64,000 bases of DNA from Jannaschia seosinensis (GTDB lineage: Bacteria > Pseudomonadota > Alphaproteobacteria > Rhodobacterales > Rhodobacteraceae): NCBI RefSeq assembly GCF_001408515.1, contig NZ_CYPR01000196.1, positions 1 through 64,000 of the forward strand, in the 5' to 3' direction. The notes beneath the pieces were generated by a model, which did no database searches, was not told where the DNA came from, and saw only the letters and a program-made list of their open reading frames with translations. Positions 22,885-54,056 of this stretch are shown in pieces. Made by a program: the position numbers and the translations under genes. Positions within the stretch are counted from its first letter, which is position 1. The number at the start of each line of letters is the position of its first letter.

Positions 22885-22887
22885 GCC

Positions 22888-27669: not shown

Positions 27670-27704
27670 TAAGAGCGCTGACCTTCGGAGAGGTCCAGTG
27701 CTGA

Positions 27705-28470
27705 TCAGGTGGCCACGGCGGGCAACTTAATGCCGGGGTTGTCGGTGACACGCGCGAGCGTTTCCATGGACATATAGCGGCGTGCGACGGTTCACTCGTC
27801 GTTTTTTTTTGAGCATCAGCGCGCCGACAAGCTAGACGATGGCTTCGTCGTTGGAGAAGATGCCGATGACATCGGACCTTCGCTTGATTTCCCGGTTCAG
27901 TCGTTCGAGCGGATTCGTGGACGCGATCTGGGCTCAGTGCTCTCAAGGGAAGTCCATGTAGGCCAGAACGTCGTCCCGCGAGGCGTCCATCGGGGTGCCG
28001 AGCTTTGCCTAATTCTGGCGCAACGCGTCGGCCACAACATCCCCACTGGGCTTCCGCGTCCACCTTGCTCTACTGGGCGAAGACCGTCTTCAGCATCGCG
28101 GCCACGGCGGTACGCTACTTGGCTGGGGCATAAGCCAGCGTATTCCGCATCCTGTGAACGCGGCGGCGCTGGTGCGTGGCGTCGAACACCCGCCGCGCGG
28201 CGGCCCGAAGCCCCTTTTGGTCGTCCGCGACCATCAGCTTCACGCCGCGCAGGCCACGGTCGGCGAGAGATCGAGAAAGTCCGTCCAGAAGGTCTCCGGC
28301 TCCGAAGGCCCTGTGACGACGCCGAGAACCTCGCGCTTGCCGAATCGAGCCAGAAATTTGGGCCCGGCCCCTTCCAGCGGGCGAGAGACGAAGGCGTTTA
28401 CCCGCTGGTCGATCTCGACGTAGAGACGGCTAACCTGCGACTTCGACATGCCGCCAAGGCGCAGCCAGAA
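27705..28470 (-). pseudogene. Degenerate IS256-family transposase
   Basis: On the minus strand the segment reads GMSKSQVSRLYVEIDQRVNAF, then EVLGVVTGPSEPETFWTDFL, then after a frameshift RGLRGVKLMVADDQKGLRAA and VFDATHQRR, ending AVAT and a stop at 27705. These are IS256 (mutator-type) signatures. A block with the first catalytic Asp (the WIDATY region) is missing between VSRPLEG and ARFGKREV. Several stops and frameshifts occur. It is therefore a dead copy truncated at its N-terminus near 28470. Confidence 0.85.
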
Positions 28471-28533
28471 ACGACTATCCTGAAACCAAATACCGAGCTA
28501 CGCTTCCTTAGCACTTGCTGCGTGGAGAGCGAG

Positions 28534-28926
28534 ATGGACCAGTCAACCATCAGAGACCTCAGTTACCTGCTCGCCGTTATTGCAATGACGGGAGTCTTGA
28601 TCTGGGGCCTGAAACATGTGTCGCGCGAGCTTGGCCGAGTGAATCCGACTACTAATAGAACACTCATGGCTGAGGCGCTTTCCGAGAAAGAAGGGACTGA
28701 GGCAGGAGTGGACGAAGACACCAGTTTCAGTCGAGTTTCCGGCGCGTTGGGTGCCATTGGGATCGCGGCGACATTCGTCGGAATTGGGTACTGGGCGCTT
28801 CATGGTCTGTTCTTTGGAACTGAGGCTAATCTAGAAAAGATTTCGTCACTATCCACGTACTTCTTGGCGGGATCCGCGTTATTTATCCCCTACGGGTTTA
28901 ACAAGATTTCTAAAATTTTCAATTAG
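28534..28926 (+). CDS. Small membrane protein at the head of the giant-protein locus
   Basis: Protein of 130 residues with three hydrophobic segments: about 9-26 (LSYLLAVIAMTGVLIWGL), 69-94 and 106-120. A charged soluble loop (37-66, rich in Glu and Thr) separates the first and second. The start ATG 28534 follows GGAGAG. No family is recognised. GC is lower than in the giant genes that follow by 157 bp on the same strand. A holin-like, anchor or channel role in the membrane is possible but unproven. Confidence 0.7.
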   Translation: MDQSTIRDLSYLLAVIAMTGVLIWGLKHVSRELGRVNPTTNRTLMAEALSEKEGTEAGVDEDTSFSRVSGALGAIGIAATFVGIGYWALHGLFFGTEANLEKISSLSTYFLAGSALFIPYGFNKISKIFN

Positions 28927-28955
28927 AAGCTAACTGCGATCGGGGCGGTCGTGGT

Positions 28956-29042
28956 GTGGTTAGCATCGCGGCGCTTCTAGGGCTGACCCACGCGGGGTAT
29001 CTCGTCGCCAAGAGGCGGCCAACGGACAAGACACGGAACTGA
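28956..29042 (+). other. Possible remnant of a membrane-protein C-terminus
   Basis: Reading from GTG 28956 gives VVSIAALLGLTHAGYLVAKR and a few more residues to a TGA. The ending LLGLTHAGYLVAK resembles the last helix of bacterial membrane proteins. No start with a ribosome site is seen. It may be debris of a gene lost between the small membrane protein and the first giant gene. Confidence 0.25.
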
Positions 29043-29082
29043 CCAGGACGTGGATCGGGGCCGGAACCGGGGGAAGGACTGC

Positions 29083-32000
29083 ATGGCAGAGATACAAATA
29101 TTCGGTGACGGCGCGGTTACTGTCGTTCTTGTCGCCGAAATTTCCGCCAGCTCCGCCCGCGTCACAGGTCTGATCGTCCGGCTTGCGGGAAACGAGGCGA
29201 CCGTCACTCTCGCCGAAGCGATCGAAAACATTCACGTGAAACTGCTGTTCTTCGAGAACGAGGACGGAAAGTTCGGCCCGCCCCGCGACGAACTGCCTTC
29301 GATCAAGGAGGCGGCCGCACTGGGTCTTGCCGCGGCACGGGCCAAGCTGCGCGCCGAGTTGGCATCCGTCGAGATTCGGGAGAAGGGTATTTTCGGCTTT
29401 CCAGCCGGATTCGCCAAGGCGTCAATGTCAATCCGCTTCGCCGATAGCGCGGACGGATCGCTTGGGTTCCGGCTCGACGCACGGACGCGGCTGGATGTAT
29501 CGGCACAGTTCGCGCTCGAACAATATGCCATGGTTACCGCCAATGCCGAGTTGGAGGCGCGGATTACGGTCGCCTCGGAGGATGTGCTTGCATCGCTCGA
29601 ATTGCTGGTGCCAACGCTCCCGAACCTAGGGTTCAAACTTCGAGATGTGGCCTTACCCACGTTGTCCTTCTACGACCTGAATGGGGTCGACATCAAGATC
29701 GGCTCTCTGACAGCGCTGAAGCTACCCCTGCCCGAATGGCTGCCGAACATCTCCGTCGAAGGTGGCGCGCCATTTACGGTGTCGGCTGATGCTGGCAATG
29801 GAGCCTTCGGTCTGAACGCAACGACCGATATCGATGTTCTGCTGGACTCGAACGAAATCGCGAAGATCGAAGATTTCGCGATCAGTCTCGATGGTGGGAC
29901 GATCAAAGTCGCGGGCAAGGTCACGGCCGAGCACGACACCCCGATTAACAAGCGCTTCGAATTCGGCGGCGGCGACCTGCCCGTCCGCGTGCAGGTGGCG
30001 GTAAAGAATGTGACCGCCGCCTTCGACGGCGGGGCCGGGGCCTTGGCCGTGACATGGACCTTCGAAGAAATCGCCGTCGAGGCGACCGACGATCCCGGCG
30101 CGCGGATCGCCGTCGCACTCGATCTGGTCACGGTAACAACGTTGTCCAGCGGGGAGACAAGCTGGGACGCGGCAAATGCGAAACTTCTGGACCTGGGCGC
30201 TGACGTTACCTTCGAGGTGCCCGACCTCAATATTATCGACGGGTTGATGAACCTGCGGCTTGGCTTTCTGGCCGATGCGGCGGGCGCTTTAGCGGAGTTC
30301 TTGGATCGGCTGGCCCGGCTCTTGGCCGCGGTCTTGCGCTACATGGCGCGCGCCGTGGGCGCGGTGACCGGCCTGTTGTCCGAAGTGGCCAAGGCGCTTG
30401 CCGGCCTGCTCGCGGACGGGCTGCGTAAACTGTTGGAGCTTCTGGACAAGGTCGGCGACGTCGTCACGCTGGAACTGCGCCTGGACGCGGCCACGCTGCG
30501 CCCCTTGCAGGTGGTCGTTCTTCCGGTGAACGCCGACCCGAAGCCCGTCGACATCGGCAGCAGCCTGCTGCGCGTGACAGCGGATCACCGCTTTGTGCCC
30601 GGCATGATTCTCGATTTCGTCAACCACTGGCAGGGGCTCGCGCTGTTGCGTGAACCTGATCTAAACGTCAATCCTCAAGTGACGATATCGACCGACCTTT
30701 GGCTTGGGTCCGATACCGACGAGGCTGGAACGATCCCGGTCGAGTCCCCTGACCCGCTGATCTCGGTCTCGGCGACTGCAAAGGACCCCAATGCCGCTGA
30801 AGCCATCGTGATCGCCGCACTCAGCCGCGGGCGGGGCAAGTTTTTTCAGACTTTCGGGGCAGAGCGAAAGAAGGCGGAGAAAAATAAAAACGGCGTCATC
30901 ACCTTCACCAGTGTCGGCGCCATTTCCGATCTGAAGGCGCTGTCAACAGACAACTTCCTATTCAAGCTGGACGCCGAGCGGCTGAAAAACAAGATCACCG
31001 CTCTGATGCCGCAAGGGCCGCCAGAAAGCGGGAGCGACAAGCTTGCGCAATTCATCGACATTGAAGAGTTCACTTTCGATCCCGACAGCGCGCCTAAATT
31101 CAAAGGCAATTTGAAGGTCCGGATCAGAATTCCGACCACCGGGAATAACGAGATCCTGATCCCGCTGGAAATCTCCGCGGTGCTAGACATAGAGACTCTG
31201 GAACTGACGCTGGATGCCGATGAAGAGATCATCATCCAGAGCAAGGCCATCGACGAAGTGATCTACGGGTTCGGCCTGATCCTCGCGCCGGTCGGGTATG
31301 ACAAGGACAAAACCGTCGTAGGCGACTTGTTCAAGATCGGTTTTAAGAAAGGCGATTTGTCGCTGGAACTTGCCGCCGGTGCCAAGGCGCTTCTATCCTA
31401 TGACCAGTTGTCGGGCGACGGCGCGTCGCTGGCCTTCGAAGCCACGGAATTCGCAATCGATCGCGGCGGACTGGACCTGATCGCAAGGGTCATGGCCGAT
31501 CGCCCCGTGCGGCTGGGCGGACTGGATCAGCCGTTCCGCTTCAATCGCGGCTCAATCTCTATTCAGGGCGGTGTGCTACAGGGCGGGACAATCTCGGGGT
31601 ATGGCCCGATGCCGCCTGCGCTGATCGGCGAGGCAAAAGCCGAGATCGACCTCGTGTTCGGCCGACGCAACGGAAACCTCGCCCTGGTGGCCGCCAACGC
31701 CAAGCTGGAAAAGGAAGGAGAGCCGCTTTATTCCACCGGCACCCGGTTCCGCGTGGTGCTCGACGCGCTCGGCCTTGGTTTCGTCGATCCTGTCGTCGGC
31801 CCGACTCAGTTCTATTTCCAGCTGTGGGGTTCTGCCAGTTTCGAGCCGGAAATCGGCGCCTTTGATGGCGGGCTTCTGGAAAACTTAAAGTCGGTAGCGA
31901 TCCGGCTCGAGGGTGCGCCGCTGACCGGCGACGGGCGCGAGTTGATCAAACACATCAGTTTCCTGGTCGAACTGGACCCGCCGCTGCGTGAAAAGCTGTT

Positions 32001-35000
32001 CGAAATCTTCAAGTTCGAAATTCGCGGCATCGCATTCTATCCGGCCAGCAAGGCCTGGCCCGACAATCCGCCCGCCATCGGGATCGCTGGACAGATCTCT
32101 TTCCTCGAAGCTGGCGATGTCGTCTCCTCCGAAATCAGCTTCCACGAAATCCTGATCGCTTTGCCGGAACCGGGCGGCGATCTTCCGTTGCCGCGGATTC
32201 GCGCGGACGGGCTTTCGATGCTACTGCGCATTGGCGGCGTGGCGCAGGTCGAGGCGACTGCCCTCGCCGTAGATGGCTCGATCCCGTCGCTTTACGCCCC
32301 CGTGGCGCTTCCGGCCGATGTGACAGCCAAGGGCTTTCTCGCCTCCGGTCGGATCGACATCGTCGGGCTTGGCGCCTTTGGCGGCGCGATGGGCGTGCTG
32401 GAGCTGAAAAAGAACAACCAAGTCAAACACGCAATGTTCATCTATGGCCAGGCCGAGAAGCTGACAGAGCGGATCGACACGCCGATCGGCCCGCTGTTCA
32501 TCCGCGAGGTCGGCTTCGGCTTTGGCAAGAATTATACTCTGTCGGCCTTGGCCGGTGCGGACGAGGCCAAGACGCCGCGCGAATTGGTCACGACACTGGA
32601 CCGTTTGTCGAAGGTTCAGGGGAACCTTACGAACTTCAATGCCTGGACACCGCAATTCGACAAGGACGCCCTGACGCTGGCCCTGCGGGGGATGATCTCT
32701 GTCGCGGCCACCTCGACCAGTTCCGCCTCTTACGATGCGGACGGTGAGGCTAAGGTGTCGAACCCGTTGCTGATGGATATCGTCCTGGCGCTGCGCACCG
32801 ATCTGACGTTCTTCGTCAACGTCCGCGGATGGCTCGCCACCAACTACAATGACTGGTTCATCGCCCCGTCGGGGGCAGAGTTCAAGGAACGCCCGACGCT
32901 GCGCGGCTATCTGTATTTCTCGGTGCCGCGCAAAGAGTTCCTGGCGCGCTTCCTGTCCGACCCGACGGGGATCGTCGGCAAGCATCCGGAACTGCCCGAC
33001 GCACTGGTCAAGGCCATTGAGGGCACTCGATTCGCAGCAACGCTGTATATCCGTCCGGGCCTATATCACACCGAACTCGGCTGGCCCTACGAATTGGGGT
33101 TTGAGTTGGGCAAGCCAACGGACAATTTCTATCTCTCGCTGTCCGCTGGTCTCGTGTTCCGGATCGAGGACGCGACAATGCTCTATGGCGTCGCGTTCAA
33201 GGCTTCGGGCCTGATGCAGTTCGGCGGAGAGGTGGGCAACGCCAACTTTGGCGCCAGCGCCACGGCCCGGGCGGATTTCCTGCTGGGCGCTCGCTTTATT
33301 GCCTATCTGGCACCGTTGAACCCCCGGGATACCCTGTTCTACGGCGAGGTCTACTTGGGCCTTACCTTGAAATTCTCGGTATCGGTCTGGCTGTCGTTCA
33401 AGGTGTTCCGAAAGCGGTTCACGCTTCGGATCGGCTTTTCCATCGGCCTGACCATCGAGATCGCCGCCGAGGTTGTGCTGTCCGGCCAGGGGCTGGGTGC
33501 GCGGGTTTATGCGTCGGTGGGTGTGCAAGGCTTCGGCCGGTCACTGTCTGTGGGTGTCGGATTTAGCTTTGGCGACAGCGCGCTGGACCGGGCGCGCGGC
33601 CGGGTCGCGCGGTTCATGCAGCTGGGCCTGGGCATCGACCCGCCGCGCGAAGAGACGCTGCTAGCCCCGGCACCCGCCGCCGAACCGGCACGGAGCGAGC
33701 GGGCGAAAGAAGCGGACCGTTCGATCAGCGAAAGACACCCGCCGCAACCGCCGAATGCGCCACTGCCCGACCCGGTTACTGTGGAGCCAGCGAAGGGCCG
33801 GCAAATCGAGGGCACCGATTTCTGGGCGGTTCTCTTGCACGCCGGCAAGGATCCGAATGGCGAGGACACCTATCTGATCCAGCTCATCCCGCGCGATCAT
33901 TCCGAAAGAGTGCGTGACACCGCCACTTTCTATGCGGAACCGTGGTTCATCAAGGATCAGAAGGAGGGCGCAAAGACGGCCGGGGCAACGAAGGGCCGCA
34001 CCGAGGGCGACTACAAGATAAAGCTGACTACGGATATTGACGGGCTGAAATATTTCGGGCGCCTTGCGGAAGGCGACCCCAAGGCCCCCGCAACGCTGAC
34101 GGCCATCAAGAAAGATGTCGAACTTCAGCTTTTCGCCAATCTTGCGCGTCCGGTCGGGGAAACCGAAAACGGCGACCTGGACCTGAATTTCCTGCTGACC
34201 GAGTGTTTCCTGGCGCATCCCGACAGCGTTCCCGGCGAGTTGGCGGAGTTTGGCTTTGGCGAGTCCCTGCCGGTCCAGCACACGCATCCTGACGCATTCG
34301 TGGACATCCCGCCTCGCCAGTCACGGGACAACCAGGCGCAGCGCTTCGCGGCCACGGATCCCGTCCTGGAGGCTTCGGTGATCGCCGAGGAAAAGCGCAG
34401 CGCGCTGATCAACAAGATCGGCGAAAGCGCCTTTGCGCTGGCTGAACGTGCGCGGGACCGCTCCGGCGCCGAGGACGCGGTTCGACTGGTACAAGAGACC
34501 GAAACGCTGAATGCGGTGGATTTCGGCCTAACCTTCCTTCTCAAGGCGTCAAACCTGGACTTGTTCGAAAAAGACGGCAAGGCCCGGCTGGAGCTTTACA
34601 AGCGGGTTGGGGACTATTCGGCCGGTAACGAGCCGGACTGGGATTTCGTCAAATGCTCTGTTGAACTGCTTAATCATCCCGACGAGTCGTTCGAGGCGAC
34701 CGAGCCCCGGCTGGACGATGCGCGGGTTGAATTGGCCGACGACGGGTATCGTTTGTACTGGGATCTCGAACCGGCGTTCGGGTCTTCTGCCGAGCTTGGC
34801 TTCGCCAAGGACCCCGAAACCCGGCTGGCTTTTTACGAGATAGAGCGCAGTTTCGAAGGCGCGGACATCGCGATGACGGCGCAGTTCCGGACCAAGAGCG
34901 CGACCCCGCAGCAGCACAATTTTGACCCTGTCACCAACACCGTCGTCGTTAGCCGTTCGCGCGCTGCGCTGCATTTGACCGACGATCTAAGCCAGGGCGG

Positions 35001-38000
35001 CGTCCCCGAAGCGCTGCGTGCGCAGCTCTTTGGAACGCCCTTGCCCAAGGGTGCCAGCGCCCGTGCGATCTGGACCGCGGCCTTTGGAGCGTCGCCGCAG
35101 GCATCGGTGGTCTACAAGGTGACGGCCGTGGACGTTCTGGGCACGCGCACAGGGCTGCGAGTGCTGGAACGGACAATCGCGCGCCCGCCCTTGGACGTGC
35201 GTCCGCCGCTGTCCGTCGAATTGGCCGTCAGCTTCGAGGGCGAACTTCCAAAACTGCAACAGGATGCGGACCCACAGATCGACCTGACGCTAATCTATGA
35301 AGATGTCGAGCATTTTGCCGCCGCACAAGATCAGCCGCTGCAATTGCGGGTCCGGTCACACACGCTCTTGGGCGGGGGAGAATACGGTGCCGACGCGGTG
35401 GACGACGCCAAATCGCGTCCTGGCCAGGCGGATATCGATACCAAACGCGAGCGCGACGTAGATCTGTTCTTGGTTCCGGATGGCGGGGGGGCGCTGAAGG
35501 TCAAGCTTGGCTTGGCAGAAGGCGCTTCTTCGAAAGGGCTTCCCAAGGACAGGCGGTACAATCTGACTTTGGTGCCGAACGGCACGGCCGTAGCCGATCC
35601 CGCGCTTGAACTGCGTAGGGCGCTGCACATCCCGAAAACGGCCGGCACCGCCCAGGACCTGCGCGCCTGCCGCGCCTTCCTGCGCAGTTTCGGGAAACTC
35701 TATATCGACCCCACCCCCTGGCTCTATGTCGAAACGCTACTGCGCGCGGAAAAGACCGTTCCGCAGGCCGACAGCGTAGAGGAGGTCAGGGAATTTGCAG
35801 CCGTCGTCGAGGCCCTGGAGACACCGCTGTCGCTTCCGTTCCTTGCGCTCGAACAGAACCAGATCGAGCGCAACGCCGGGCGGCTGGAACTCGTCTATCC
35901 CGTCGAGGGCGCCGAACTAAAACATCTGGCTGAACAAGCTGGGCCGGTGGTGACGCGTCGGCGGCTTGATCCCGAGCGGCGGGCGGCGATTCGCCTGGAC
36001 TTCAACGCCTCCGGCGCCCGGCTTGCCAAAGCCTCCGGAACCCGGCTGGCGTCGCTGGTGGCGGGTTACGACGTGTTTGTTGTCGACCCTGCGCGACTAC
36101 GTTCGCTAGGCGGCAAAGATGGGCCAACTGCCGACCAGGTCGCCGCCGAAGCGCGCAAGCGGACTACGGTCAAGGTCCTGCCCCGCACCCTTGCCGGAAC
36201 CTCGCCGTCTGCCCTGCCCGACACCCGCTCGATCGAGGTGCGCTATCCATCGGACACCGCCCGGACCGATCCCGAGCAGCTCAATGGCCGTACGCACGCG
36301 CCATGGTTCTCTGCCGCGGAAAGCCTCGTCGCCTTCCCGCGCCGCTGCCTGCGGCGGTCGCTGTTCCCCGCGCCGGAAGAGGCGATGATTTCGGAATTGC
36401 TGGCAGAACGGAAGGTGCGGAAGATTGACTTCGCGCTGACGCCGCTTCCAGGCGGTCTGCCGGATGAGCCATTAAGCCGCGCGAAGTGGCTTGCCAATGC
36501 ACCGGTCGAGGTGAAGCGTGACATCGCACATCCCAATGCGGAAAAGCCTGCTCCTAAGGTCAAAGCGACCGCAGAGAGCGACGGCGACATCATCACTTGG
36601 ACCTACGAGAGCGACGATGACATTACCGTAGCCGAGGTGAGGGCCATCCTGCGGGGCTTGGTCATCCAGCCCGATGAAGTTGTCGAAGACGCCTATCGCG
36701 CCTGGCGCGCGAGTGGCTCGAACCCGGGCTTGGCAAATCAGTTCCGGTTGCGCGTGGCGATCACCGCGACGGACGATCAAGGCAGCGCGGCTGAAAGCCA
36801 TACCGAAGTCGATCTGGCCAGCAGCCTGCATCCGGTTCTGGCCGACACGCTCGATGCACTCAACTATATGCCGTACGACGAAAAGACGGCTGGGGCGGTC
36901 TATCGCGCCTTCGAGGTCGTGCGAGAGCCGGTGCCACCCCTGGAGACGGACGGGCTGGACACTTTTCTTGACGCCCGCGCGCCCTCTGCCGATCCCTACG
37001 GCTGGGGCGTTCTGCGCGCGATGGGACTTGCCGAAGGGGTGCGCATCTATGACGTCGACCGGGCGCAATTCCTGAAGGGTCAGGCGCTGTTCGATCATGT
37101 GGACAGGGTTCTGACGGAGGCGCTGAAACGGTACGACGTCGCGCCGCTGGGCCATCCGTTTGTCGAACTTGTCGACGTGCCGGACGATTTCATGGGCATC
37201 AGCTCTTTCGATGGCCGCGCGGAAGCCCCTGCAGAGGACACCCAGCGTATCCGCGCCGGCGATACCTCAATCCTGCAGATCGGCCTGCGCCCCCACGCAG
37301 ACCGGCTGAGCGTGCCAGAGCCACCGGTGCGGTATCTTGTCTGTTCGCGCGTGGACGACAAGGCGCTTGCACCCGAAAAATTGACGTTTCCGGCCGACCA
37401 GGGCTCGGCGCTGATCGATACCGTCGGTCTGCCGCTGGAGCAGGGCGCCGGCGCAGCGCGGTTCGCGGTCGGCAACGCGTCCTCAATCGTATTCCCGGGC
37501 CAACCGGAACTTCGGATCCCAGGTGGCGCGCAGATTTACTATGATCGCCTGTCGCGCCTCGTAAAGGGCCGGCCCGCGGTGCTGATCCGTGTGGCGGCGG
37601 TGGAAACCGGGTTCAAGTTCGGCGCCTTCCGCGACGCGTTGCAGCAGGCCATCGACCCGGCTCGACTGACGATATCGCCGTGGATCGACACGCTGGACGA
37701 TTGGACCGACACGCGAGACAAGGAGGGCACGTTGGGAGGCAACCCGTTCGATGTCTTTCCGCCGCTCGACGGGGCGCTATTGCGCGTCATGCTCGACCTT
37801 CCGATCGCCGGGTCCAGCGACGAAACCCAGGCCTCGCGCTTCAAGTCTTGGCTGCCGCCGCGGCACAATCCGGCCAACGATTCTGCCGCGTTCGACGCGA
37901 CAGCCTTCGCGGCGCGGTTTGGTGCGTGGTCGGAACGGTTCCTGCGGCACGGCGCGGCGATCAAGGGCCGCGGCGCCGCCACGAGTCACATCGGCTTTGC

Positions 38001-40155: not shown

Positions 40156-40160
40156 GAGAC

Positions 40161-43100
40161 ATGAGCCGACCCCTCCGCTCAATCCTCATCATCGGCCCGC
40201 GGTGGAAGGACGGCGCACTTTGGACTTTCGATGCCGATCTGTTCATGGAAGTTCCCAAAGCGAAAAAAGAACCGCTGGTCGAACACACTCCAACCTTGCG
40301 CGGACTTGGCGCACGGATCGAGGCCGAGACACGGGTGATCGGAGATCCGGTCGAACTGCACGAGCCGCCTCTTCTGCGCGGGCGACTGGACCTCGAGAAA
40401 CCCGCCTTCGTTCAGCTTCATGGCCCCAAGGATACGCCGCACGGGTTCCACGATGCCGTGCAGCCGACTGGCACCGGCCGTGCCGATGTGCTGCTCGCCC
40501 AGACAGAGCCATGGCCCAACCCTTGGGACTGGCATCACCAGCAAGAACGACCAAACCCCAAGAAACTGATCGTCGTGCCGGACCAGAGGCTCGTGGCCGG
40601 GCGTATTGCCTTGCGTGTTCCGCGGGCAAAGAAGAATAAAAATGGCCTAGCGGAGTTTCTGCATTACAGCCCGGGCAAACACACGATCTTTCAAGGCCAT
40701 CCTCTGGTCGGAGACGACGCTGGCAAGGGAACTGGGCCCTTGGTTCGCCTCGTCCCGGATGGGATTGAGATCGATGTGCGCCTTCCCCATCCCCTGATCG
40801 ACATTGTCCCGAACGTTCCCGATACGCTTCCGGTGCGAGTCCGCATCGAACCGGACGGCACCACCGGATTCCTCGCACGCCTAGTCGCCATCCTCGACAC
40901 CGATGGCCCGCCGCCAAACCTCTCCGCACTGTGGCAGAGGGCGTTCAACGCGCTCGAGGAGCAGGAGGCACCGCTGCGAGCGCAAGCCGATACCCGCGCC
41001 GCCGTGCCGCCATTTGCCTGGCAGCTGTCACAAGACAAGACTGGTCTGCACCTTTACGCGCTCGACAAGTCGGCGGATTGGCGCATCCGGGTAGATCCGT
41101 CGGTTCTGGCGCTGCGCCTGGAAACCGACACGCCGTTCGGTTCTGAAACGCCCGCCGTGGCGAGGTTGGACAGCCTGGACGCAGCGGGCTCGGCCGATCT
41201 GACATTGTGGCGAAAGGGAAAGAAGACGCATCTGGAGTTCCGGTCCGCCGCCAACCCCGATCCGTCCAAGGATCGGCCGGAAATAACGGCAACCTATGGA
41301 GGGGGCGAGAAATACGAGCTCAAGACGCTGGCCACGCCGTCCTTGGAGGTCTACGTCCCGATCGCCGAGGCAGGCGCCCGCCGCGCCGTGCCGGACACTG
41401 TGCCGGATTGGGCGTTTCTTCCGGTCAGAGACGGGACCCTGCAGATCGCCGCCGCCCCCTTCGTGCCCGAAGAACAGGCCAATCCGCTGCCCAGCGCATC
41501 CTCGCTGATCGGTAATTGTGTCTTCCGTCAGACGCATCTGGCAATGGCAGTCGACGGGGCAGAGGACGTGAACGTTTCGGTCAGTTGGACCGCCACCGCG
41601 GCTGGCGCCATCGCACTGAACTTCGCGGCCCCGTATGGGGCCCTGCGCGAAGCTCTGTGGTCGGCGGAAGAGGCGCCCACCAGCGAGCGGCTGCTGCCGA
41701 CCGGCCGCACTGATCCGGGCCATCTGCGCGAATTACCCGCGAGGTTCGGCTCCGGGATCGCGCGGAACGCCAGCCTTCAGCTGACGCCGACGGGCGGCGC
41801 GTGGAGCCTGACGCTGGACGGGACCATGGCACAGTCGATCCCCGCGATCCACTGGACCGCGATTGTCGGGCTGCCCCTGATCCCGGCCGTCCCGATGCTG
41901 GCCAGCGGCGCCGAGACGCGGCCGTCCGACATGCGGGCGGTGGTGCCCGTGGAACTGGATGGTATCATCCGCCTTGAGTCGGACGGTAGCACCGCGCTGG
42001 CAAAGGTCGCGAACGACCCCGTCAAGACGCCGTCCGTCACCTGGCCTTGGGTCGAAAAGGCGGATCTGCCTGCCTGGGGCGTGCCGTCGGTGAACTTCGT
42101 TTCACCCACGGCGCCGGGGCTTGACTATGCCTGGGCGCCCGGAACACGGCCCGGCCGGGACAGCTTCGACGTCTCTTTGCGCTTCGATCTACCGATCCTC
42201 GACGAGCTATATGCCCAACCCGACCCCGAAGCCGAGGCCGGCACCGCGGCCGACACGCCGCCGCCCCCGGCGCCGGTGACCGGAGTGCTCGATCTTGCGC
42301 AGATATCCCTGCTGTGGTCGCAGCGCGCCTTTGCCCTTGCCACGACGCGCACTCAAGGCGTGCGGGCCACAGCCTGGGCCGGCCACGGCGTGCCCGTGGA
42401 CGGCCCCATCGCACTGGCCGCGCCCTATAGTGCGGACGCCACGGTGACCTTTGTCCGCGACTATGCGTTCCCCTCGGGCAACCTGCCGCTGGGCGGTTAC
42501 AGCCTAACGTGGGATCGCGTGAAACCAACGCCCTTCAGCGGTGAGACGGCGCTGCTTGGCCCGATGGGCGGTGAGGATGAGCCGCTCGCACTGGGCCTCA
42601 CGGAGGAGGACGGGGCCCTGCATCCCAAGGGCGGCAAGGATGTTGCTACGCTGAAACTGGCCGGGTTTGCGCCCGACGCCTATCTCGACAAGAGTCTTGA
42701 GAACGACGATCCCACCAGTCTGTCCGATACGCGTGGCACCGCGATGGCGCGCGCCCGGACAACGAAGGACGGCGTGTCCCGCCCCGCCCGGTTCCGCGAC
42801 CGCGATGGGAACGGCAAGGTCCGGTCCAAAGGGCGCGATCTGGTGACGTGGAACGATGCAATTGTCGTGAAGGGACTTGGATCTGACGCCCTGTTCTGGG
42901 TGCGCGACCTGCCGCATGACGAAGACGGCGTGTTCGACGGCACGAAGAACCCCGTAGAGGGTCGGCTCGGTCCGGACCCGACCCCCTTCGCGGCCAGAGC
43001 CTTGCAGGATGCCTTATACGAATGGCGCCTGTTCGAACGGCGGGCTGAGATGGAGAGCGCCGATTTCTCGATCCGGCACAATGGGCTGACCTTGACGCCG

Positions 43101-46100
43101 CTGCGCCTGCTGCACGTCGGGACGAAGGAAATCTGCGTGCTGTGCCGCGCCAGCCTGGAGGGCCCGCTGACCGACCCGGAAACACGTGAAGCGTTCGGGG
43201 AGGAAACGCCCTACCGCATCGGACCGCTTGTCGAAATTAAATTCGGGCGAAGCGGCGGCAAGCTGGCCCTGGCCAAAGAGGCGCGGATCCGAGCGCTGGA
43301 GTCCGCCGGCGGCCTGGATCTGGTCCTTTCGGACAAGGACCCCGAACGCCTCGAATTTCCGCTGGTTGCCGCGCTGGTCCTGCGGCTGGCCGGGGCCACA
43401 AGCACCGTTGCGGACCCGGTGGGCTTGCGGCTTGCTGCGCAGTTGGGCGAGCTGAGTGACGATCCGGTTTTTCGCAGGATCGAGCTCTCGTTTTCGCTGT
43501 TTAACTACGACGTGACGCTTGCGATGGAGGTCGATGGAAAGGCGGCTCACCCGACCTATCAATTCACGCATCCCGACGCGCGCCCGGCGGACGGGGTCTG
43601 GATCGCCGCCGCCCGGCTGGAACAGGTCGGTCCTGGGACCTCCGGATGGCGACTGGATGTGACCCTCGACGCGCGGGTAGAGATCGGGACGCAAGGGGCG
43701 GATCGGCCGCACGTTTTGGACACGACCGGCGGCATGATCCGCTGGCTTGGCTACGAGGATACAGATCCGCCGGAAATACGGATCGATCACGCGCGCGGCG
43801 CGATCTGGCTTTACCTCGAACCGGGCGGCCTTTCCACGATGGCCAGTCCGATCGAGGGGATGATGCTGACGACAGTCGACGAATGGCGATTTAGCGCGGG
43901 CCTTGTGACCGGGACGGTTGCGGGCTCTGCAATTCCCGTCTGGCCACTCGCCTCCGGCTTGGTTCAGGCGCGCATGGCGGGCGAAGCGAACGGTGTGCAA
44001 GTGGCATTGACAAGCCACACGCGCTGGTCGGGCGAAACCCGCGACAGCGAGGTCCTGCTGACCCGCGAGGCGGTGAAGGACGGTGCGCTGAGGTTCCAGA
44101 AGAGCGGCATCTCCTGGGACCCGGACGGACTTTCGGTCAAGGCGCCCGGAAATCCTGCCAAGGCCGCGCGCGTGGAAACCCGAAACGTTGCGCCGATCCG
44201 GCACGATGTTAGCGTGTCACTGCGCGATAGCCCGATTCCCGTTACCGCGCTTGCCCGGGACGGCGCCACGGTCCGGCTGACGCGGTCCGTAGCGCTGGAG
44301 CTTCAGGTGCGCCACCGGCTGCTGCGCGACAACACCGAACTGGCGGCTTGGCGCAGCTTTGACAATGTGCAGTTGACCTCAGAACAGCTGTGGCAGCAGG
44401 ACTGGACGGGCAAGGCCTTTGGCCCGCGGTTCGAGGGCGGCCGCACGAGCTATCGCGGCGAGATCGACAAACGCCCCGAATATGCTGGCATCGGCGATCG
44501 GTCACTGATGCTCAGCGGATTCGACGATCCGCTGCTGCGCACCGACGGCCACGACACACGGTTGATCCTGGTCGGCGGCGGGACCTGCGTGTTCGTACAT
44601 CACAAGACGACCCATGCCTTCGGCCTGCCCTGGGCGATCGGCATGGACACCGGCGCGTCGGACCTGCCCAAGTCGTTCTGCGATCTGATGGTGTTCGGCG
44701 AAGGCGACGCGTGGAGAGCCCCCGTCGACGATGCGACACCGTTCGAGATTGCCGCCGATGCGTTGCCGCCCCTGGTTCAAGTACCGTCGAGTGTTCTGGG
44801 CAAGGCGGAGCTTGACGCCTTGTTGGCGACGAAACCGGGCATCGGCGGTGCGGCAGACCTCGTCTGGCCCAGCCTGCAAGCCTTTGTCGAACGCGACCCG
44901 GCGGATGCAAAAGTGGGGGACGTCAAGACTTGGCCGCTCTTCCTGCCATCGCTCGTCGCGTTGCAGCAGACGCTGAAGTACATCGATCCCGACAAGCGTG
45001 CGGACTGGCGCATTCTGTCCGTGCGCCACCGCGCCAATGCCTCGGCTGTCGCGCTGGCCTTCCCGCATGAATCGATTGCCGCGCCGCCCGCCGCGCTGGA
45101 ACGGGCAACCAAACTGCACTTGGTGGCGCTGGACAAAGGCAGGGCGCCCCGCTTCTTCGCCCTGAATGTTCCGCCGGATATCGCCGAGATCGACACCGCG
45201 TGGGACCTGCTGGGCCCATCCCGCCTAGCCGACCTAGCCGAGGCGCAGATCACCGATGCCGTGGCGGTCGGCTTGGCGTTGCTGGGCCGCAAGACCGGTA
45301 CCGGCGGCGAAGATGGCAAGGAGCCCGATATCCGGGTGCGCGATGTGCGGCCGGTGCCAATCGACCGCGCGGACAACCCTTTTGGCAGGGAGCAGTCGCA
45401 GCTCTTCGATGCGCATCAGCAGGTCTATCCCTCTCCCGCGCTGGGCTGGCCTGAAGCTGTTGACGCGCAAGGTGCGGCGCGGTTTGCCATGGATGGCCGC
45501 GTCGACGCGCCTGTGATCTCGTCCAAAGCCGGGCTGGCAGGGCGCGTCGCAGTTCTATCGACCGGCTCCGCGGTGGCGACACGGGCCGACAGGGCGCGCT
45601 ACCTCGTCACGCAAGCGCGCGTGGTCTTCCACCATGGCGACGAGTTCGACAAGGTCGCGCTGCGGGCGCCGCCTGCGCGGCATTTGGCGGTTCTGTCCCC
45701 CCGGGCGCGCACTCCGATCCGCGAGGCCCGGGAGGAGGCGCTGCAACAGGCAATGGCCAAGTCTGCCGAAGACGGCAGCACCTCCACCAATTCGCTGCTT
45801 CCCGCGACGATGGGGGTAATTCCCGCGATCTACTCCCGCGCACTGATCGGAGAACGGCCCGGCGTGCATGAGACCTTCATCGACGCTCTCCTCAGCGACG
45901 GCAACCGGTCCGATCTGATCGACCGTGGCGCGCGGGGCGCTGGACGATCGGCGGTCCTATCGCCAGTCTTGGCGCGGCAATTAAGAACCCCGCGCAGTCC
46001 CGCGCTGCCCGAAGATCCAAATTTCGATCTGACTTCGCGCCGGCGCACCTATGTTTCGCTGTTCGACCGTACCGCGCCGGGCGGTCTGGCCCTGCCTATG

Positions 46101-47459
46101 GCCGTCCGATGTGCCGCCTCCTCGCTCTGGCGCTTGGCAGAGACCGACCGCTTCATCCTAGATCTTCAGACCCTCTCGTTGGACCCAGGAAAGGTGCGCA
46201 ACTCGCAGGAGAGGGGGCAACTGTTCCAGTTACGCCTGACGCTGTCACACGCCGGCAAGTCTCCGGTGATGGAGGCGCTGGCACAGAGCGGGTTTCTGTA
46301 TCGCGGAACCAAAGAAGCGCCATACCATCTTCGTGCCTGGCTGTCCCTGGGCGAGACCCGGATCGACGCCTTCCGCCTTGACTGGCACGAGCCCGTCTCG
46401 CAGCCCAGCGTAGGGAAGGTGTCCAGGCATGAGCTAACGCTAGAACTCGCCTTCGCGGGCCGCGACCTCGGACCGTTGCTCAGCGCTTTGGCCGATCCGG
46501 ACCCGAACACGCCAGCCACCCTGCAGATGTCGTTCGCAGACGAACAGAAGGCTGCGCCTTTCGATCCAACCGATGGAACGGCGCTGCTGGCTCAAGGCGA
46601 AGTGTCTGCCTTAATCACCGGCGAGCCCACCGCGCTGTCCTTCCCGATTGGGCGCAAGCCGGCACGACGCCCCACGCTCGATATAGAGCGGCGCAGCTTC
46701 CTGTTCGCCGATCCGGCCTTTGACCGCGCACTGGCGTGCCCCGGCTCCAGTTCCCAGGTTATTCGGAACGACGGCGGATCGCTTGCACTTGTTCTGACTG
46801 CGGACCGAACGCAGTACGCGCTGACGCAGACATTGTACTTTGCCTACGGCTCGATCGAGGACGGCGCCTTTGAGAGGAAGGGGATCGCGGCCAGCCTTAA
46901 ACTGGCGCTGATCCCCAAACGCGGTGACGCGACACCGTCAGCGCCGGTTGAACTGCAGCTCGCGGGCAAGGTTGCCCTGCCGCTTCTCGGCGATGCCCAG
47001 CCGTATGGCCTGCCGCTTGGGCTTCTCGAACCGAAGACGTCGACCGCCCCTAGACCCGCACCCGGTGACCGGCTTTTGATCGAGCTGACGCCCAACGACG
47101 GGTTCAACGGCGGCGCGCTGAGGCTGGAACTGCCGCTCGCTGAACGCGCCGACGACCCGCGCCCCGCGGCGGTCTATTCGGTGATCGCCCTCGGCGCAAA
47201 AGACGCCGATGGACAACCGGTGTCGCGAACCCTGATGCACGCCGCGGCCCCGGCCCCCGACCGGGTCCAGTTCCAAGATCTCCTGAGCGACTTGGCCACC
47301 GGGCACATCCGCAAAAATGCGATCTTTGAGTGGCGCACGACTGACCTGACCGACACGATCGATTGGCCCCATTACACTCTGACCAAAACGGACCGGTCGG
47401 GCGGCGCGCAATTGCCGAAGTACGAAGATGACCTTGTTTCACCGCCGCAGAAAGAGTGA
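40161..47459 (+). CDS. Giant protein B (2,432 aa), unknown function
   Basis: Starts 5 bp after giant A with GGAG upstream of ATG 40161 (MSRPLRSILIIGPRWKDGAL), so it is surely co-transcribed. It has no signal peptide, few cysteines and no transmembrane segment. The first 250 residues are basic and Pro-rich (HEPPLLRGRLDLEKPAFVQL). The rest is strand-rich with many acidic turns (DPVGLRLAAQLGEL, ALELQVRHRLLRDN). A histidine-rich patch GGGTCVFVHHKTTHAFGLPW occurs near 1475. I recognise no family. Co-expression and size suggest it builds a complex with giant A. Confidence 0.85.
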   Translation: MSRPLRSILIIGPRWKDGALWTFDADLFMEVPKAKKEPLVEHTPTLRGLGARIEAETRVIGDPVELHEPPLLRGRLDLEKPAFVQLHGPKDTPHGFHDAVQPTGTGRADVLLAQTEPWPNPWDWHHQQERPNPKKLIVVPDQRLVAGRIALRVPRAKKNKNGLAEFLHYSPGKHTIFQGHPLVGDDAGKGTGPLVRLVPDGIEIDVRLPHPLIDIVPNVPDTLPVRVRIEPDGTTGFLARLVAILDTDGPPPNLSALWQRAFNALEEQEAPLRAQADTRAAVPPFAWQLSQDKTGLHLYALDKSADWRIRVDPSVLALRLETDTPFGSETPAVARLDSLDAAGSADLTLWRKGKKTHLEFRSAANPDPSKDRPEITATYGGGEKYELKTLATPSLEVYVPIAEAGARRAVPDTVPDWAFLPVRDGTLQIAAAPFVPEEQANPLPSASSLIGNCVFRQTHLAMAVDGAEDVNVSVSWTATAAGAIALNFAAPYGALREALWSAEEAPTSERLLPTGRTDPGHLRELPARFGSGIARNASLQLTPTGGAWSLTLDGTMAQSIPAIHWTAIVGLPLIPAVPMLASGAETRPSDMRAVVPVELDGIIRLESDGSTALAKVANDPVKTPSVTWPWVEKADLPAWGVPSVNFVSPTAPGLDYAWAPGTRPGRDSFDVSLRFDLPILDELYAQPDPEAEAGTAADTPPPPAPVTGVLDLAQISLLWSQRAFALATTRTQGVRATAWAGHGVPVDGPIALAAPYSADATVTFVRDYAFPSGNLPLGGYSLTWDRVKPTPFSGETALLGPMGGEDEPLALGLTEEDGALHPKGGKDVATLKLAGFAPDAYLDKSLENDDPTSLSDTRGTAMARARTTKDGVSRPARFRDRDGNGKVRSKGRDLVTWNDAIVVKGLGSDALFWVRDLPHDEDGVFDGTKNPVEGRLGPDPTPFAARALQDALYEWRLFERRAEMESADFSIRHNGLTLTPLRLLHVGTKEICVLCRASLEGPLTDPETREAFGEETPYRIGPLVEIKFGRSGGKLALAKEARIRALESAGGLDLVLSDKDPERLEFPLVAALVLRLAGATSTVADPVGLRLAAQLGELSDDPVFRRIELSFSLFNYDVTLAMEVDGKAAHPTYQFTHPDARPADGVWIAAARLEQVGPGTSGWRLDVTLDARVEIGTQGADRPHVLDTTGGMIRWLGYEDTDPPEIRIDHARGAIWLYLEPGGLSTMASPIEGMMLTTVDEWRFSAGLVTGTVAGSAIPVWPLASGLVQARMAGEANGVQVALTSHTRWSGETRDSEVLLTREAVKDGALRFQKSGISWDPDGLSVKAPGNPAKAARVETRNVAPIRHDVSVSLRDSPIPVTALARDGATVRLTRSVALELQVRHRLLRDNTELAAWRSFDNVQLTSEQLWQQDWTGKAFGPRFEGGRTSYRGEIDKRPEYAGIGDRSLMLSGFDDPLLRTDGHDTRLILVGGGTCVFVHHKTTHAFGLPWAIGMDTGASDLPKSFCDLMVFGEGDAWRAPVDDATPFEIAADALPPLVQVPSSVLGKAELDALLATKPGIGGAADLVWPSLQAFVERDPADAKVGDVKTWPLFLPSLVALQQTLKYIDPDKRADWRILSVRHRANASAVALAFPHESIAAPPAALERATKLHLVALDKGRAPRFFALNVPPDIAEIDTAWDLLGPSRLADLAEAQITDAVAVGLALLGRKTGTGGEDGKEPDIRVRDVRPVPIDRADNPFGREQSQLFDAHQQVYPSPALGWPEAVDAQGAARFAMDGRVDAPVISSKAGLAGRVAVLSTGSAVATRADRARYLVTQARVVFHHGDEFDKVALRAPPARHLAVLSPRARTPIREAREEALQQAMAKSAEDGSTSTNSLLPATMGVIPAIYSRALIGERPGVHETFIDALLSDGNRSDLIDRGARGAGRSAVLSPVLARQLRTPRSPALPEDPNFDLTSRRRTYVSLFDRTAPGGLALPMAVRCAASSLWRLAETDRFILDLQTLSLDPGKVRNSQERGQLFQLRLTLSHAGKSPVMEALAQSGFLYRGTKEAPYHLRAWLSLGETRIDAFRLDWHEPVSQPSVGKVSRHELTLELAFAGRDLGPLLSALADPDPNTPATLQMSFADEQKAAPFDPTDGTALLAQGEVSALITGEPTALSFPIGRKPARRPTLDIERRSFLFADPAFDRALACPGSSSQVIRNDGGSLALVLTADRTQYALTQTLYFAYGSIEDGAFERKGIAASLKLALIPKRGDATPSAPVELQLAGKVALPLLGDAQPYGLPLGLLEPKTSTAPRPAPGDRLLIELTPNDGFNGGALRLELPLAERADDPRPAAVYSVIALGAKDADGQPVSRTLMHAAAPAPDRVQFQDLLSDLATGHIRKNAIFEWRTTDLTDTIDWPHYTLTKTDRSGGAQLPKYEDDLVSPPQKE

Positions 47460-47518
47460 AGAGGCCGCACGTGCCTCGCCGTCCCGCGGCCCAGAAAATT
47501 GACATGAGGAGGTTAAAG

Positions 47519-48337
47519 ATGCCTGCGAAAGAGTCAGTCGATCAAATCAGGACAAGCGAGGCCACCAAATGGGATGCGGTCAAGACAATTACCGGTGCCG
47601 CGCTCGACTTCCACATCACTTTTCTAGGCTGTGCCAAGGGGCAAAAACACGATGAAGCGATTGACGCAACAGCCCGGGCGCGGCTTTTGCGCATTTTGCG
47701 TGCCGTCTCCTGGGTCGAAAGCGCCCATGGAACCGCAGGCGCCAACCAACCAAAGCGTGATCCCATGCAGTCGGGTAATCCCAAGGATGCATGGTGGAAG
47801 GAATTGACCGGTCAGTCCGGTCAAGGCTCGCGTATTGTACGCGGCCCAAGTCTGACAAATCTCTGGGCCAACGAAGTCGCCGCTGCCGCCGCGGCTTTCA
47901 ACGGGTTCGATGCCAATGCGGCCATGGGCAAACTGGGGGACGAGAAGAAGGGGCATGACGACAGCAAGTTCACACCCGCCCACAGCTATTACTGGGGCGT
48001 CGTCTATTTGATTCATCGCATCAATACGAAAGCGGGCGACAAGACCTACCAATGTGGCGACCTTTCACGCGCCCGACTGATTGACGGCGCCGTGGAATAC
48101 AATGGAGGCGGTGTAAAGGACTATAGGGAACGTATTGAAACCGCGCTTGCGCTGATCGGCGACTTGTCGGAACGCGCCGTCGATACCCCAAAGGACGGCA
48201 GTCATCAGCGCCGTTTGGATGCCGTCCTGCTTGCTGAAGAAATGGGCAAACTGAAACTCCGAAACGTGGATTTACGCGCCGTCAAGGCGGAATTTGACAG
48301 GGACGGCAACGTAATCGCGTTATCGGTAGAGTTCTAA
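47519..48337 (+). CDS. Lysozyme/transglycosylase-like protein ending the giant-protein locus
   Basis: Protein of 272 residues. The ATG at 47519 has an ideal AGGAGG with 6-nt spacing; earlier GTG and ATG codons are weaker. The core reads LRAVSWVESAHGTAG with Glu67 in the position of a glycosidase acid, then DPMQSGNPKDAWW and finally AVEYNGGGVKDYRERI (YNGGG 194-198), the general order of lytic transglycosylases and goose-type lysozymes. No signal peptide is present, so cell-wall access would need lysis or a dedicated export route. A peptidoglycan-cutting role is inferred from motif order. Confidence 0.6.
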   Translation: MPAKESVDQIRTSEATKWDAVKTITGAALDFHITFLGCAKGQKHDEAIDATARARLLRILRAVSWVESAHGTAGANQPKRDPMQSGNPKDAWWKELTGQSGQGSRIVRGPSLTNLWANEVAAAAAAFNGFDANAAMGKLGDEKKGHDDSKFTPAHSYYWGVVYLIHRINTKAGDKTYQCGDLSRARLIDGAVEYNGGGVKDYRERIETALALIGDLSERAVDTPKDGSHQRRLDAVLLAEEMGKLKLRNVDLRAVKAEFDRDGNVIALSVEF

Positions 48338-48562: not shown

Positions 48563-49639
48563 CTATCCGATCTTGCAGCCCCAGAAGGACGTGTGATCGG
48601 CGGCGAAGTAGCCGTCCGCGACCCGAAAATACCCCTGCAGCTCGACGGTATCGCCGGCCGTCAGCGGGACAATCGTCTGCAGCCAGATGGCGGTGGCGAG
48701 CGAGACGTGGGTGGCGGAGATTTCGCCGAGGGAGCCGCGGATTTCCGTCGTGCCGTTCAGCACGAGCCGTCCGCGCATGCGTGCCGTGGCGCTGGCGTTG
48801 ATCTTGTAGAGCAGCGTCGCGCCGAACAGGTAGGTGCCGTCAACCGGGGCGACGAAGTGGTTGTTCGCGGCGTCGAACGCGCCCTGATCGTTGGTGTCGG
48901 TGTTGTTGAGGCCGATCTTCGTCCAGGTCCCGACGCCGACATAGTTGTCGTAGTTCGTGTAGGCCTTGAAGCGCGGGAGCCGGGGCTGGTCGACGACGCC
49001 GGTGGCGTTGTCCACGCTGAGGCCATCGAAGAAGGTGCTGCCGTCGGCGGAGACCGAGAGGCGGAAGCGGTCCGACCCGAAGAGCCCGACCAGCGCCTTG
49101 GTGACAAAGTTGGTCTGGAGTGTCAGACCGAGATCGTCGCCCGCACCCTCCTTGCTCATGGTGTAGAACAGATCGCCCGTGCCGCCCTCGGCGACGGTCT
49201 TCGCCGTCCAGAGCGCGGCATTGAGCTTGGCTGAGAACGGGTTCGACGCATCCGCGGTGGCGCCGACCCCGAGCAGTGCCATGTTCTGCAGCGCCGCGGG
49301 CGTCGTCCCGATCCAGCCCGCGCCGTCGTAGACCAGCAGGAGGCCCTCGTCCTCGACCCATGCCCGCCAGCCTGTCCGTGGCGGCAGGCGCAGCCACGCG
49401 CCGTCCGTCCAGAGCGCGACATTCAGGTCCCACCCCGCCCAGTCGCCCGTTCCACCCGAGCCGACGATGTAGCGGTCGCCGTCGGCGGGGCTTCCGGGCG
49501 GGCTGGTCAGGTCGCGGTCCAGGACGGAGAGTTGCACTAACCCGTCGAGGATCCGCAGCGCCTCGTTGTGGGTGACATGCTTCTGAGCCTGCGCCGCCAG
49601 GATGTAGGGCAGCAGGAGATGGGTCGTGGCGTCGGACAT
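48563..49639 (-). CDS. DUF2793 tail-fibre protein with C1q-like head
   Basis: Protein of 358 residues. The N-terminal DUF2793 domain (LLLPYILAAQAQKHVTHNEA, then LVQLSVLDRDLTSPPGSPAD) is typical of rhodobacterial phage and GTA tail ends. The C-terminal 140 residues (FKAYTNYDNYVGVGTWTKIG to HTSFWGCKIG) resemble a C1q/TNF-like trimeric jelly roll. Such heads bind host-surface ligands. The ATG at 49639 has GAGGA upstream. This is the distal end of the late operon and the likely host-recognition determinant. Confidence 0.85.
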   Translation of the reverse strand: MSDATTHLLLPYILAAQAQKHVTHNEALRILDGLVQLSVLDRDLTSPPGSPADGDRYIVGSGGTGDWAGWDLNVALWTDGAWLRLPPRTGWRAWVEDEGLLLVYDGAGWIGTTPAALQNMALLGVGATADASNPFSAKLNAALWTAKTVAEGGTGDLFYTMSKEGAGDDLGLTLQTNFVTKALVGLFGSDRFRLSVSADGSTFFDGLSVDNATGVVDQPRLPRFKAYTNYDNYVGVGTWTKIGLNNTDTNDQGAFDAANNHFVAPVDGTYLFGATLLYKINASATARMRGRLVLNGTTEIRGSLGEISATHVSLATAIWLQTIVPLTAGDTVELQGYFRVADGYFAADHTSFWGCKIG

Positions 49640-49646
49640 GGGGTCC

Positions 49647-53612: not shown

Positions 53613-53621
53613 GTCGAGGTC

Positions 53622-54056
53622 TCAGCGTTGCGGGAACAGGAAAGCGAAGGCGATGCGCCGCCGCCAGCTTTGAGTGAGCGGTTCCTCGATCACGCCAAGG
53701 CGCTCGTAGGCATGGAGGAAGGTGGCGGGGCCGGTCAGGATCCCGACATGCTTGGCGATGGCGCGCGGCTGCATGCGGAAAAGGACCAGCCCGCCGGGAC
53801 TAGCAGCTGCCGTTTCCACCTCGATCATCATGCGCCGCGCGCCCTCGGCCAGAACCTCGCGCGGCCAGGTCTCGCCCCAGTCCCGGCTGTAGGGCGGGAT
53901 CGGGAACGGCTCGGGGCCGACGACCTCGCGCCAGACGCCCCGCGCGAGGCCGAGGCAGTCGCAGCCGACGCCCCGAAGGCTCGCCTGGTCGTGGTAGGGC
54001 GTGCCGAGCCAGGACTGCGCGATGGCGATGACGCGTGCGGGATCGGCGGAGGTCAC
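53622..54056 (-). CDS. NlpC/P60 cell-wall peptidase of the tail tip (GTA g14-like)
   Basis: Protein of 144 residues. The catalytic Cys is Cys34 in GVGCDCLGLARG and the His is His103 in IAKHVGILTG, as in NlpC/P60 gamma-D-glutamyl peptidases. Phage and GTA members cut peptidoglycan at entry. The gene overlaps the upstream hub gene by ATGA and sits just before the g15-like gene, the standard order. Confidence 0.9.
   Translation of the reverse strand: MTSADPARVIAIAQSWLGTPYHDQASLRGVGCDCLGLARGVWREVVGPEPFPIPPYSRDWGETWPREVLAEGARRMMIEVETAAASPGGLVLFRMQPRAIAKHVGILTGPATFLHAYERLGVIEEPLTQSWRRRIAFAFLFPQR

Follow-up and report, generated by a model that had tools for sequence, protein, structure and literature searches.

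The stretch of DNA analysed in this study (the window) comprises 64,000 nucleotides from Jannaschia seosinensis, whose assembly (G000; 3.83 Mb, 253 contigs) is 98.7% complete. The locus of interest consists of four genes on one strand, which encode in order a 130-residue protein, the two giant proteins G1 and G2, and G3 (Table 1). The sequence-only reading of this DNA had described the four genes, their sizes, the short gap between the giants and an ideal ribosome site for G3, and all of these are confirmed by the open frames and by the AGGAGG ahead of the G3 start codon. The ATG is most likely the start of G1; an alternative GTG at 29050 would give a protein of 3,701 aa.

Table 1. Features of the G1-G2 locus in the window
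Feature	Position	Strand	Basis or remark
Gene of the 130-aa protein	28534-28926	+	Open frame and hydropathy; upstream of G1
G1, first giant of the conserved pair	29083-40155	+	ATG at 29083; 3,690 aa
G1 core (aa 700-1530), best conserved part, predicted beta meander	31180-33672	+	
Best DUF6603-like segment of G1 (aa 1038-1197)	about 32194-32673	+	Remote profile similarity
G2, second giant	40161-47459	+	2,432 aa; starts 5 bp after the G1 stop
Predicted beta-sandwich of G2 (aa 2193-2332), just ahead of the C-terminal motif	46737-47156	+	Model
C-terminal motif of G2, KTDRSGGAQLP (aa 2409-2419)	47385-47417	+	Alignment of relatives
G3, third gene	47519-48337 (open frame from 47456)	+	ATG at 47519 after AGGAGG; 272 aa

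The 130-aa protein has two to three hydrophobic segments: three had been read from the sequence, and the hydropathy scan gives two clear ones. It has no significant Pfam match and is possibly a membrane companion of G1-G2. Upstream of its gene lies a type I restriction-modification operon (18672-25646; HsdR, HsdS, PrrC-like, HsdM), in which a 375-aa gene (22888-24015) scores as PrrC, an arrangement that we take to be like that of the PrrC anticodon-nuclease islands. An IS4/5-type transposase is positioned between this operon and the 130-aa gene, and an apparent second, degraded transposase was judged by eye to lie at about 27700-28500. The minus strand at 4326-6683 encodes a 785-aa protein, a homologue of which is found 7.3 kb upstream of the pair in another locus (L012).

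Downstream of G3, the minus strand carries gene-transfer-agent tail genes (48563-54937; DUF2793, GTA_TIM, Rcc01698, BR0599), and this cluster probably continues to position 64000. The proposal that the giants are a phage structural add-on was rejected. The PHROGs gave a single row for G1 (E 0.79) and none for G2 and G3, neither G2 nor G3 has a match among 50,697 phage records, and the phage-like genes next to the giants belong to the gene-transfer-agent cluster on the opposite strand. Among the viral contigs of IMG/VR, G1 matches solely the window's own contig, which is most simply explained as being listed there, probably, because of the gene-transfer-agent genes downstream.

The giants had been described as having no nameable domain, and the family searches agree with this. 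Neither G1 nor G2 gave a Pfam or NCBIfam row at E<=1, and the best PADLOC row of G1 (E 0.047, a specificity subunit) is taken as chance, with none at E<=0.1 for G2 and G3. Profiles of G1 and G2, built from 8 and 7 relatives, respectively, found no match at E<=10 among PDB sequences. In a Pfam scan of the 19 aligned G2 members, two single chance-level rows and nothing significant were obtained, and two divergent G1 members yielded one row that was not significant. Comparison of the two profiles with each other revealed no relationship between G1 and G2 (E 0.19). Thus no adhesin, polyketide or tail-fibre family is matched at a significant level in Pfam, NCBIfam or PHROGs. The giants were also said to contain no transmembrane span, which is borne out except for marginal single hydropathy windows (1.61-1.66). 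For the G1-G2 system, neither a gene for export nor a signal peptide or a domain for receptor binding was identified. In the portion of the literature that was accessible, neither the G1-G2 pair nor the partner domains together with giant genes were found described.

Conservation and distribution of the pair

A total of 22 distinct loci were compared (the window, L003, which is on the same plasmid as L018, L004-L008, L012-L017, L019-L022 and L025-L029). Left out were L023 (a 475-aa fragment from Pseudomonas rubra), L024 and L049 (the window itself) and L033 (identical to L017 over a 3.1-kb stretch, L080, that covers the G2 end and its partner). The partner is defined here as a small gene located no more than 1.5 kb from the pair. 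In 21 of the 22 loci, the window counted, G1 is followed by the second giant on one strand and in the same order, so that the gene order is present in other genomes and adjacency and order are kept in 20 loci besides the window; in L028 the pair is broken into pieces. The start of G2 lies between an overlap of 29 bp and a gap of 36 bp relative to the end of G1 (21 loci). G2 is split over two frames in L005 and present as two overlapping genes in L025. Homology of the second giant to G2 is strong in 19 of the 21 loci (by blastp, or by profile at E 1e-52 or better). With a 16-member G2 profile, the second giant was recovered in L026 (E 1e-52), as were both G2 halves in L025 and L005, and the second giants of L027 and L029 were matched weakly (E 6e-6 and 1e-5; the best of 30 shuffles gave 0.25).

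The pairwise identities of the G1 core and of G2 are correlated with each other (r=0.89, 19 members). For four close pairs of relatives, dN/dS is 0.17-0.25 in both G1 and G2, and for two more distant pairs it is 0.27-0.47. These values point to purifying selection in the pairs tested. From the conserved order, the co-varying identities and the dN/dS values, it follows that the pair is an inherited, mobile unit under selection. Decayed fragments of G1, which show loss of the system, occur in Pseudomonas rubra (L023, 5143-6570), in Undibacterium as a second relic (L025, 11737-12198) and in Neorhizobium (L028).

The pair is found in Alpha- and Betaproteobacteria, in both soil and marine bacteria. 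A scan of 84,980 species genomes returned 12 loci, a yield that is limited by the two peptide patterns used. In genome samples, own and repeated genomes included, the G1 core was rare, being present in 2 of 385 genomes at the class level, 3 of 398 at the phylum level and, for the family that includes G704, 2 of 391. G2 was detected in 2 of 100 relatives of the window genome, its own genome being one of them, and in none of 19 congeners. The nearest relative of the pair that was found is on a contig titled uncultured Tropicimonas. By tblastn, G2 matched 6 plasmids, 5 of which are typed conjugative, and the G1 core matched 11, with 8 typed conjugative. Their hosts are Rhizobium, Sinorhizobium, Mesorhizobium, Bradyrhizobium, Neorhizobium, Undibacterium and Cupriavidus.

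In 9 of the 22 loci, the pair is flanked by membrane proteins, which fall into three different types. One type is that of the window, another occurs in L003, L005 and L014, and a third, of ~600 aa, is encoded directly upstream of G1 in L004 (split), L012, L017, L020 and L021. The latter has no Pfam match in the two members scanned (L012 and L017). Compared by hhalign, the 130-aa protein and the 317-aa membrane protein of L003 and L005 give E 0.016 over 26 residues, and the 130-aa protein and the ~600-aa family give E 0.1, with one of the four rows (L020) out of frame.

Remote similarity and predicted structure of the giants

The G1 core is remotely related, by profile comparison, to DUF6603 (PF20248). 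The hhalign alignment reaches E 2-3e-4 in its main segment and 2.4e-3 in a collinear second segment, at a probability of just 40-47% and with few sequences. Its score of 49.1 exceeds those of all controls, which reach at most 22.4 with 25 column-shuffled profiles and 26.9 with the single reversed one. Out of 12 targets from DUF6603 clusters, DUF6603 alone matches G1 (the best other E is 0.048). The Pfam DUF6603 model itself gives no row for G1 at E<=1 and has no match in the window genome. G2 was rejected as a relative of the DUF6603-cluster proteins, with no profile match among the 12 targets.

Very large proteins occur in both systems, four DUF6603 frames being 1,565-3,416 aa long. The DUF6603 clusters differ in carrying families of ~720 and ~1,100 aa that match neither giant (nothing below E 0.4 with the G1 and G2 profiles). 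These clusters were seen in Proteobacteria (Pseudomonadota), Paenibacillus (Bacillota), Streptomyces (Actinomycetota) and the halophilic archaeon Halobellus (L042-L048). Both companion families are present in L042, L045, L046 and L047, L043 and L044 share at least the second, and neither was recognised in the Halobellus cluster. The name DUF6603 was found in no paper within the accessible part of the literature.

An AlphaFold2 model of G1 residues 430-1530 consists mostly of long strands, with a mean pLDDT of 54.5 and a pTM of 0.36. Outer-membrane barrels, LptD, DDB1 and ApoB are among the structural rows for the G1 core, and no row amounts to a genuine match. An outer-membrane barrel was rejected, as the Foldseek rmsd is >22 A in the 50 rows shown and the VIA Z of <=8.5 is background. 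Hydrophobicity alternating in the manner of beta strands is strong at G1 1-430 (z 6.3) and 1251-1530 (z 5.5; 60 shuffles), and it is weaker or absent elsewhere in G1 and in the G2 sequence (z -0.8 to 3.1). In the model of G2 1730-2432 (pLDDT 49.5), the beta-sandwich at residues 2193-2332 is better predicted (10-residue block means 60-88). Two resemblances of this sandwich were discarded as background, one to arrestin/VPS26-like folds (best Z 8.2, rmsd 3.3, 113 residues) and one to the type VI secretion system (T6SS) cargo-complex row 9jg8_C (Z 8.0, rmsd 3.7, 112 residues). The strand-rich character that had been attributed to both giants therefore holds for parts of each, in models of low confidence.

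Partner enzymes and the C-terminal end of G2

Conservation does not extend to the small gene beside the pair, which is drawn from one enzyme pool. An enzyme partner is present in 15 of the 22 loci (raw count), 12 being of a wall-active type, with the window assigned by motif only, and three being C70 proteases. At or above the Pfam cut-off are M23 in L003, YkuD in L008 and L022, Amidase_6 in L017 and Tae4 behind a SLOG domain in L016, as well as the papain-like Peptidase_C70 of L025, L027 and L029, which is a protease family and not a wall-enzyme family. By homology to rows of this level, the partner of L021 was assigned as the same amidase as in L017 and that of L006 as YkuD. Below the cut-off are YkuD in L005 (E 2.6e-4), NlpC/Amidase_6 in L013 (E 0.03), to which the partner of L026 is homologous, and Tlde1 in L015, which falls just under it (E 3.8e-6). 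The fusion in L016 (27731-28738, Bradyrhizobium sp. WSM1743) joins a SLOG (LDcluster4) domain to the Tae4 amidase. L004 and L012 share an uncharacterised small gene, and L004 additionally has an M12 peptidase 2.1 kb downstream. No partner was seen in L007, L019, L020 and L028. Among the 192 features of nine annotated plasmid stretches, the only named wall enzymes, judged by eye, are the M23 and L,D-transpeptidase that adjoin the pair.

Twelve of the 15 partners are positioned downstream of G2, those of L003 and L005 behind the membrane gene; the upstream ones are in L006, L022 and L026. A hydropathy scan found no hydrophobic N-terminus in 13 of the 15, which are all 12 downstream partners and, among the upstream ones, that of L026. 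Hydrophobic segments are present at the N-terminus of the L006 and L022 YkuD partners, which may therefore be ordinary envelope enzymes. In the loci inspected by eye, no immunity gene was recognised beside the enzymes. The amidase of L017 is followed by a gene for a 247-aa protein whose N-terminus is signal-like, an immunity candidate by eye, and no such gene follows the same amidase in L021.

In the window, G3 shows lysozyme-like motifs by eye (E-S at 67, P-M-Q at 82 and Y-N-G-G at 194) and has no hydrophobic N-terminus. Its description as lysozyme-like rests on these motifs. Pfam gives no support for a lysozyme, and the alignment of the motif segment with SLT transglycosylases (8 clean rows), which 2 of 60 shuffles equal in score, is no more than suggestive. 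G3 is a candidate cargo enzyme, of lysozyme/SLT type by motif. G3 homologues were found in no plasmid or phage, and a search of 190 alphaproteobacterial genomes and of viral contigs returned its own copy only. The broader claim that the last protein acts on peptidoglycan gains support at the class level, as the position of G3 is dominated by peptidoglycan-active enzymes.

Exchange of the partner can be followed between closely related carriers. The rhizobial plasmid loci L003 and L005 are 98.1% identical over 21,149 bp spanning G1, G2 and the 317-aa membrane gene. This identity ends 52 bp past the membrane gene, after which L003 has the M23 gene and L005 the YkuD-like gene. Another case is L007 and L008, which are 80% identical until just behind a motif near the C-terminus of G2; past this point, L008 carries a module fused to G2 as well as a YkuD gene, whereas L007 has a weak module remnant (43%, 53 aa). 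The motif, K-x-D-R-x-G-G-x-Q, is found in 16 of 19 aligned members and is absent from G2 of L026, L027 and L029, and G2 ends shortly past it in 13 of the 16 motif-bearing members. Behind the motif, a fused 156-aa module (M1) is present in L014, in L018 (the L003 plasmid) and, by tblastn, in L005, and a fused 123-aa module (M2) in L008. Downstream of the pair, L014 carries free paralogues of both, 67% identical for M1 and 59% identical to the M2 of L008, and no recognised enzyme. M1 and M2 have no Pfam match, and in PLSDB they occur only in records that carry the pair. A free M1 with a lysine-rich leader of ~45 residues is also encoded in Bradyrhizobium sp. 132 (L056, 2131-2736). By comparison of sequences, the small partner is shown to be exchangeable and mostly of wall-active type, and the C-terminus of G2 to be a fusion point.

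Possible functions of the G1-G2 system

The pair and its interchangeable enzyme suggest an unrecognised toxin carrier or self-destruct device. The best explanation, for which the chances appear about even, is that G1-G2 is a mobile polymorphic effector system, in which the two proteins are a carrier for cell-wall toxins. G1 and G2 would be produced jointly and assemble into a carrier of very large size that is rich in strands. G2, the probable cargo-bearing protein, would dock the partner at its C-terminal end, where a module may also be fused, and G1 would provide a membrane-active or shell-forming part, its beta meander making contact with a membrane or forming a shell. The replaceable small enzyme, usually a peptidoglycan hydrolase or L,D-transpeptidase-type protein, would come from a gene close by, in most cases the adjacent one; the replacement is read from the sequences, and the enzyme would serve as the cargo. 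The downstream enzymes, with no hydrophobic N-terminus, would therefore be harmless in the cytoplasm of the producer. The most likely use would be carriage of the enzyme into the periplasm of competing bacteria.

Such a carrier fits no described kind found in the accessible part of the literature, and the logic of its exchange resembles that of polymorphic toxins. The likeness includes a conserved carrier, a variable tail past a boundary motif, free module genes and a toxin-like gene swapped between near-identical carriers (L003 and L005). Unlike polymorphic toxins, G1-G2 has no known trafficking domain in Pfam and NCBIfam and no recognised immunity gene. Tae4 and Tlde1 are antibacterial effector domains delivered by type VI secretion against rivals. 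They link the pair to T6SS effectors as partners in two loci, Tae4 above the cut-off and Tlde1 just below it, whereas G1-G2 matches no T6SS family in Pfam. Tc toxins and Rhs cocoons are presumably also comparable, being giant and rich in strands with an enzymatic cargo that varies at one C-terminus, although G1 and G2 match no such Pfam family.

The sheath protein VipB of the T6SS is absent from the window genome, a 98.7%-complete assembly; among the eight carriers searched, the window included, it is absent in four and present in four. The phage-type sheath PF04984 is likewise absent from the window genome and is present in one of the eight carriers. Dependence on its own T6SS or phage-type sheath is unlikely for the window genome. 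A bolder form of the carrier explanation is put forward tentatively, as one that could well be wrong. Here the two giant chains would be a new delivery machine, a strand-rich shell or pore that loads interchangeable wall toxins at the G2 C-terminus, takes them into other bacteria and works without a T6SS, an eCIS or a known secretion domain, and that may hint at the function of the DUF6603 clusters.

The strongest alternative, although an unlikely one, is intracellular lysis or abortive infection. On sensing a phage or a different kind of attack, G1-G2 would admit a wall enzyme from the cytoplasm to the cell's own periplasm, via the amphipathic strands of G1 or a membrane companion, so that the infected cell lyses. 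This would be in keeping with the type I restriction-modification operon and its PrrC-like gene directly upstream in the window, with AbiEi/AbiEii, Avs1c, CHAT, caspase or FRG genes within the annotated stretches of seven other loci, L004-L007 and L025-L027 (raw count), and with the flanking membrane proteins of three types in 9 of the 22 loci, and it requires no immunity gene. PADLOC, however, gave no convincing match for G1, G2, G3 or the partners of L013 and L016. Between a weapon and a lysis device, the weapon is favoured because Tae4 and Tlde1, domains of T6SS type, are antibacterial and the exchange of C-terminal modules is like that of polymorphic toxins; the anti-phage reading is retained because no export route or immunity gene was recognised.

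A less probable alternative is an envelope-spanning surface or conjugation-linked assembly, in which the enzyme would open the producer's own wall for assembly or exposure of the giants. VirB1-type transglycosylases open the wall of the producer for other machines in this way. Conjugative typing of 5 of the 6 plasmids with a G2 match and 8 of the 11 with the G1 core would suit it, as would enzyme genes that are mostly close behind G2. Yet the downstream enzymes lack a hydrophobic N-terminus, C70 proteases and a SLOG-Tae4 fusion are odd for wall remodelling, the enzyme class differs between nearly identical carriers, and no transfer gene was found among the few window neighbours scanned. Giants that bind lipids or small molecules in BLTP- or ApoB-like grooves, the neighbour gene being unrelated, are highly improbable: the long alternating strands and the weak Foldseek rows for LptD and ApoB100 would fit, but the model is unreliable (pTM 0.36, rmsd >22 A in all 50 rows shown), and the recurrent enzyme pool and cassette exchange are left unexplained.

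A system of about 20 kb is a burden for its hosts, and its preservation intact by selection across scattered soil and marine bacteria implies a benefit. If the giants do carry wall toxins, this would be a delivery route beyond the numbered secretion systems, and cargo exchange could readily be tested on the two plasmids that are nearly identical but differ in cargo. If true, the carrier explanation would also give the first functional lead for the DUF6603 family.
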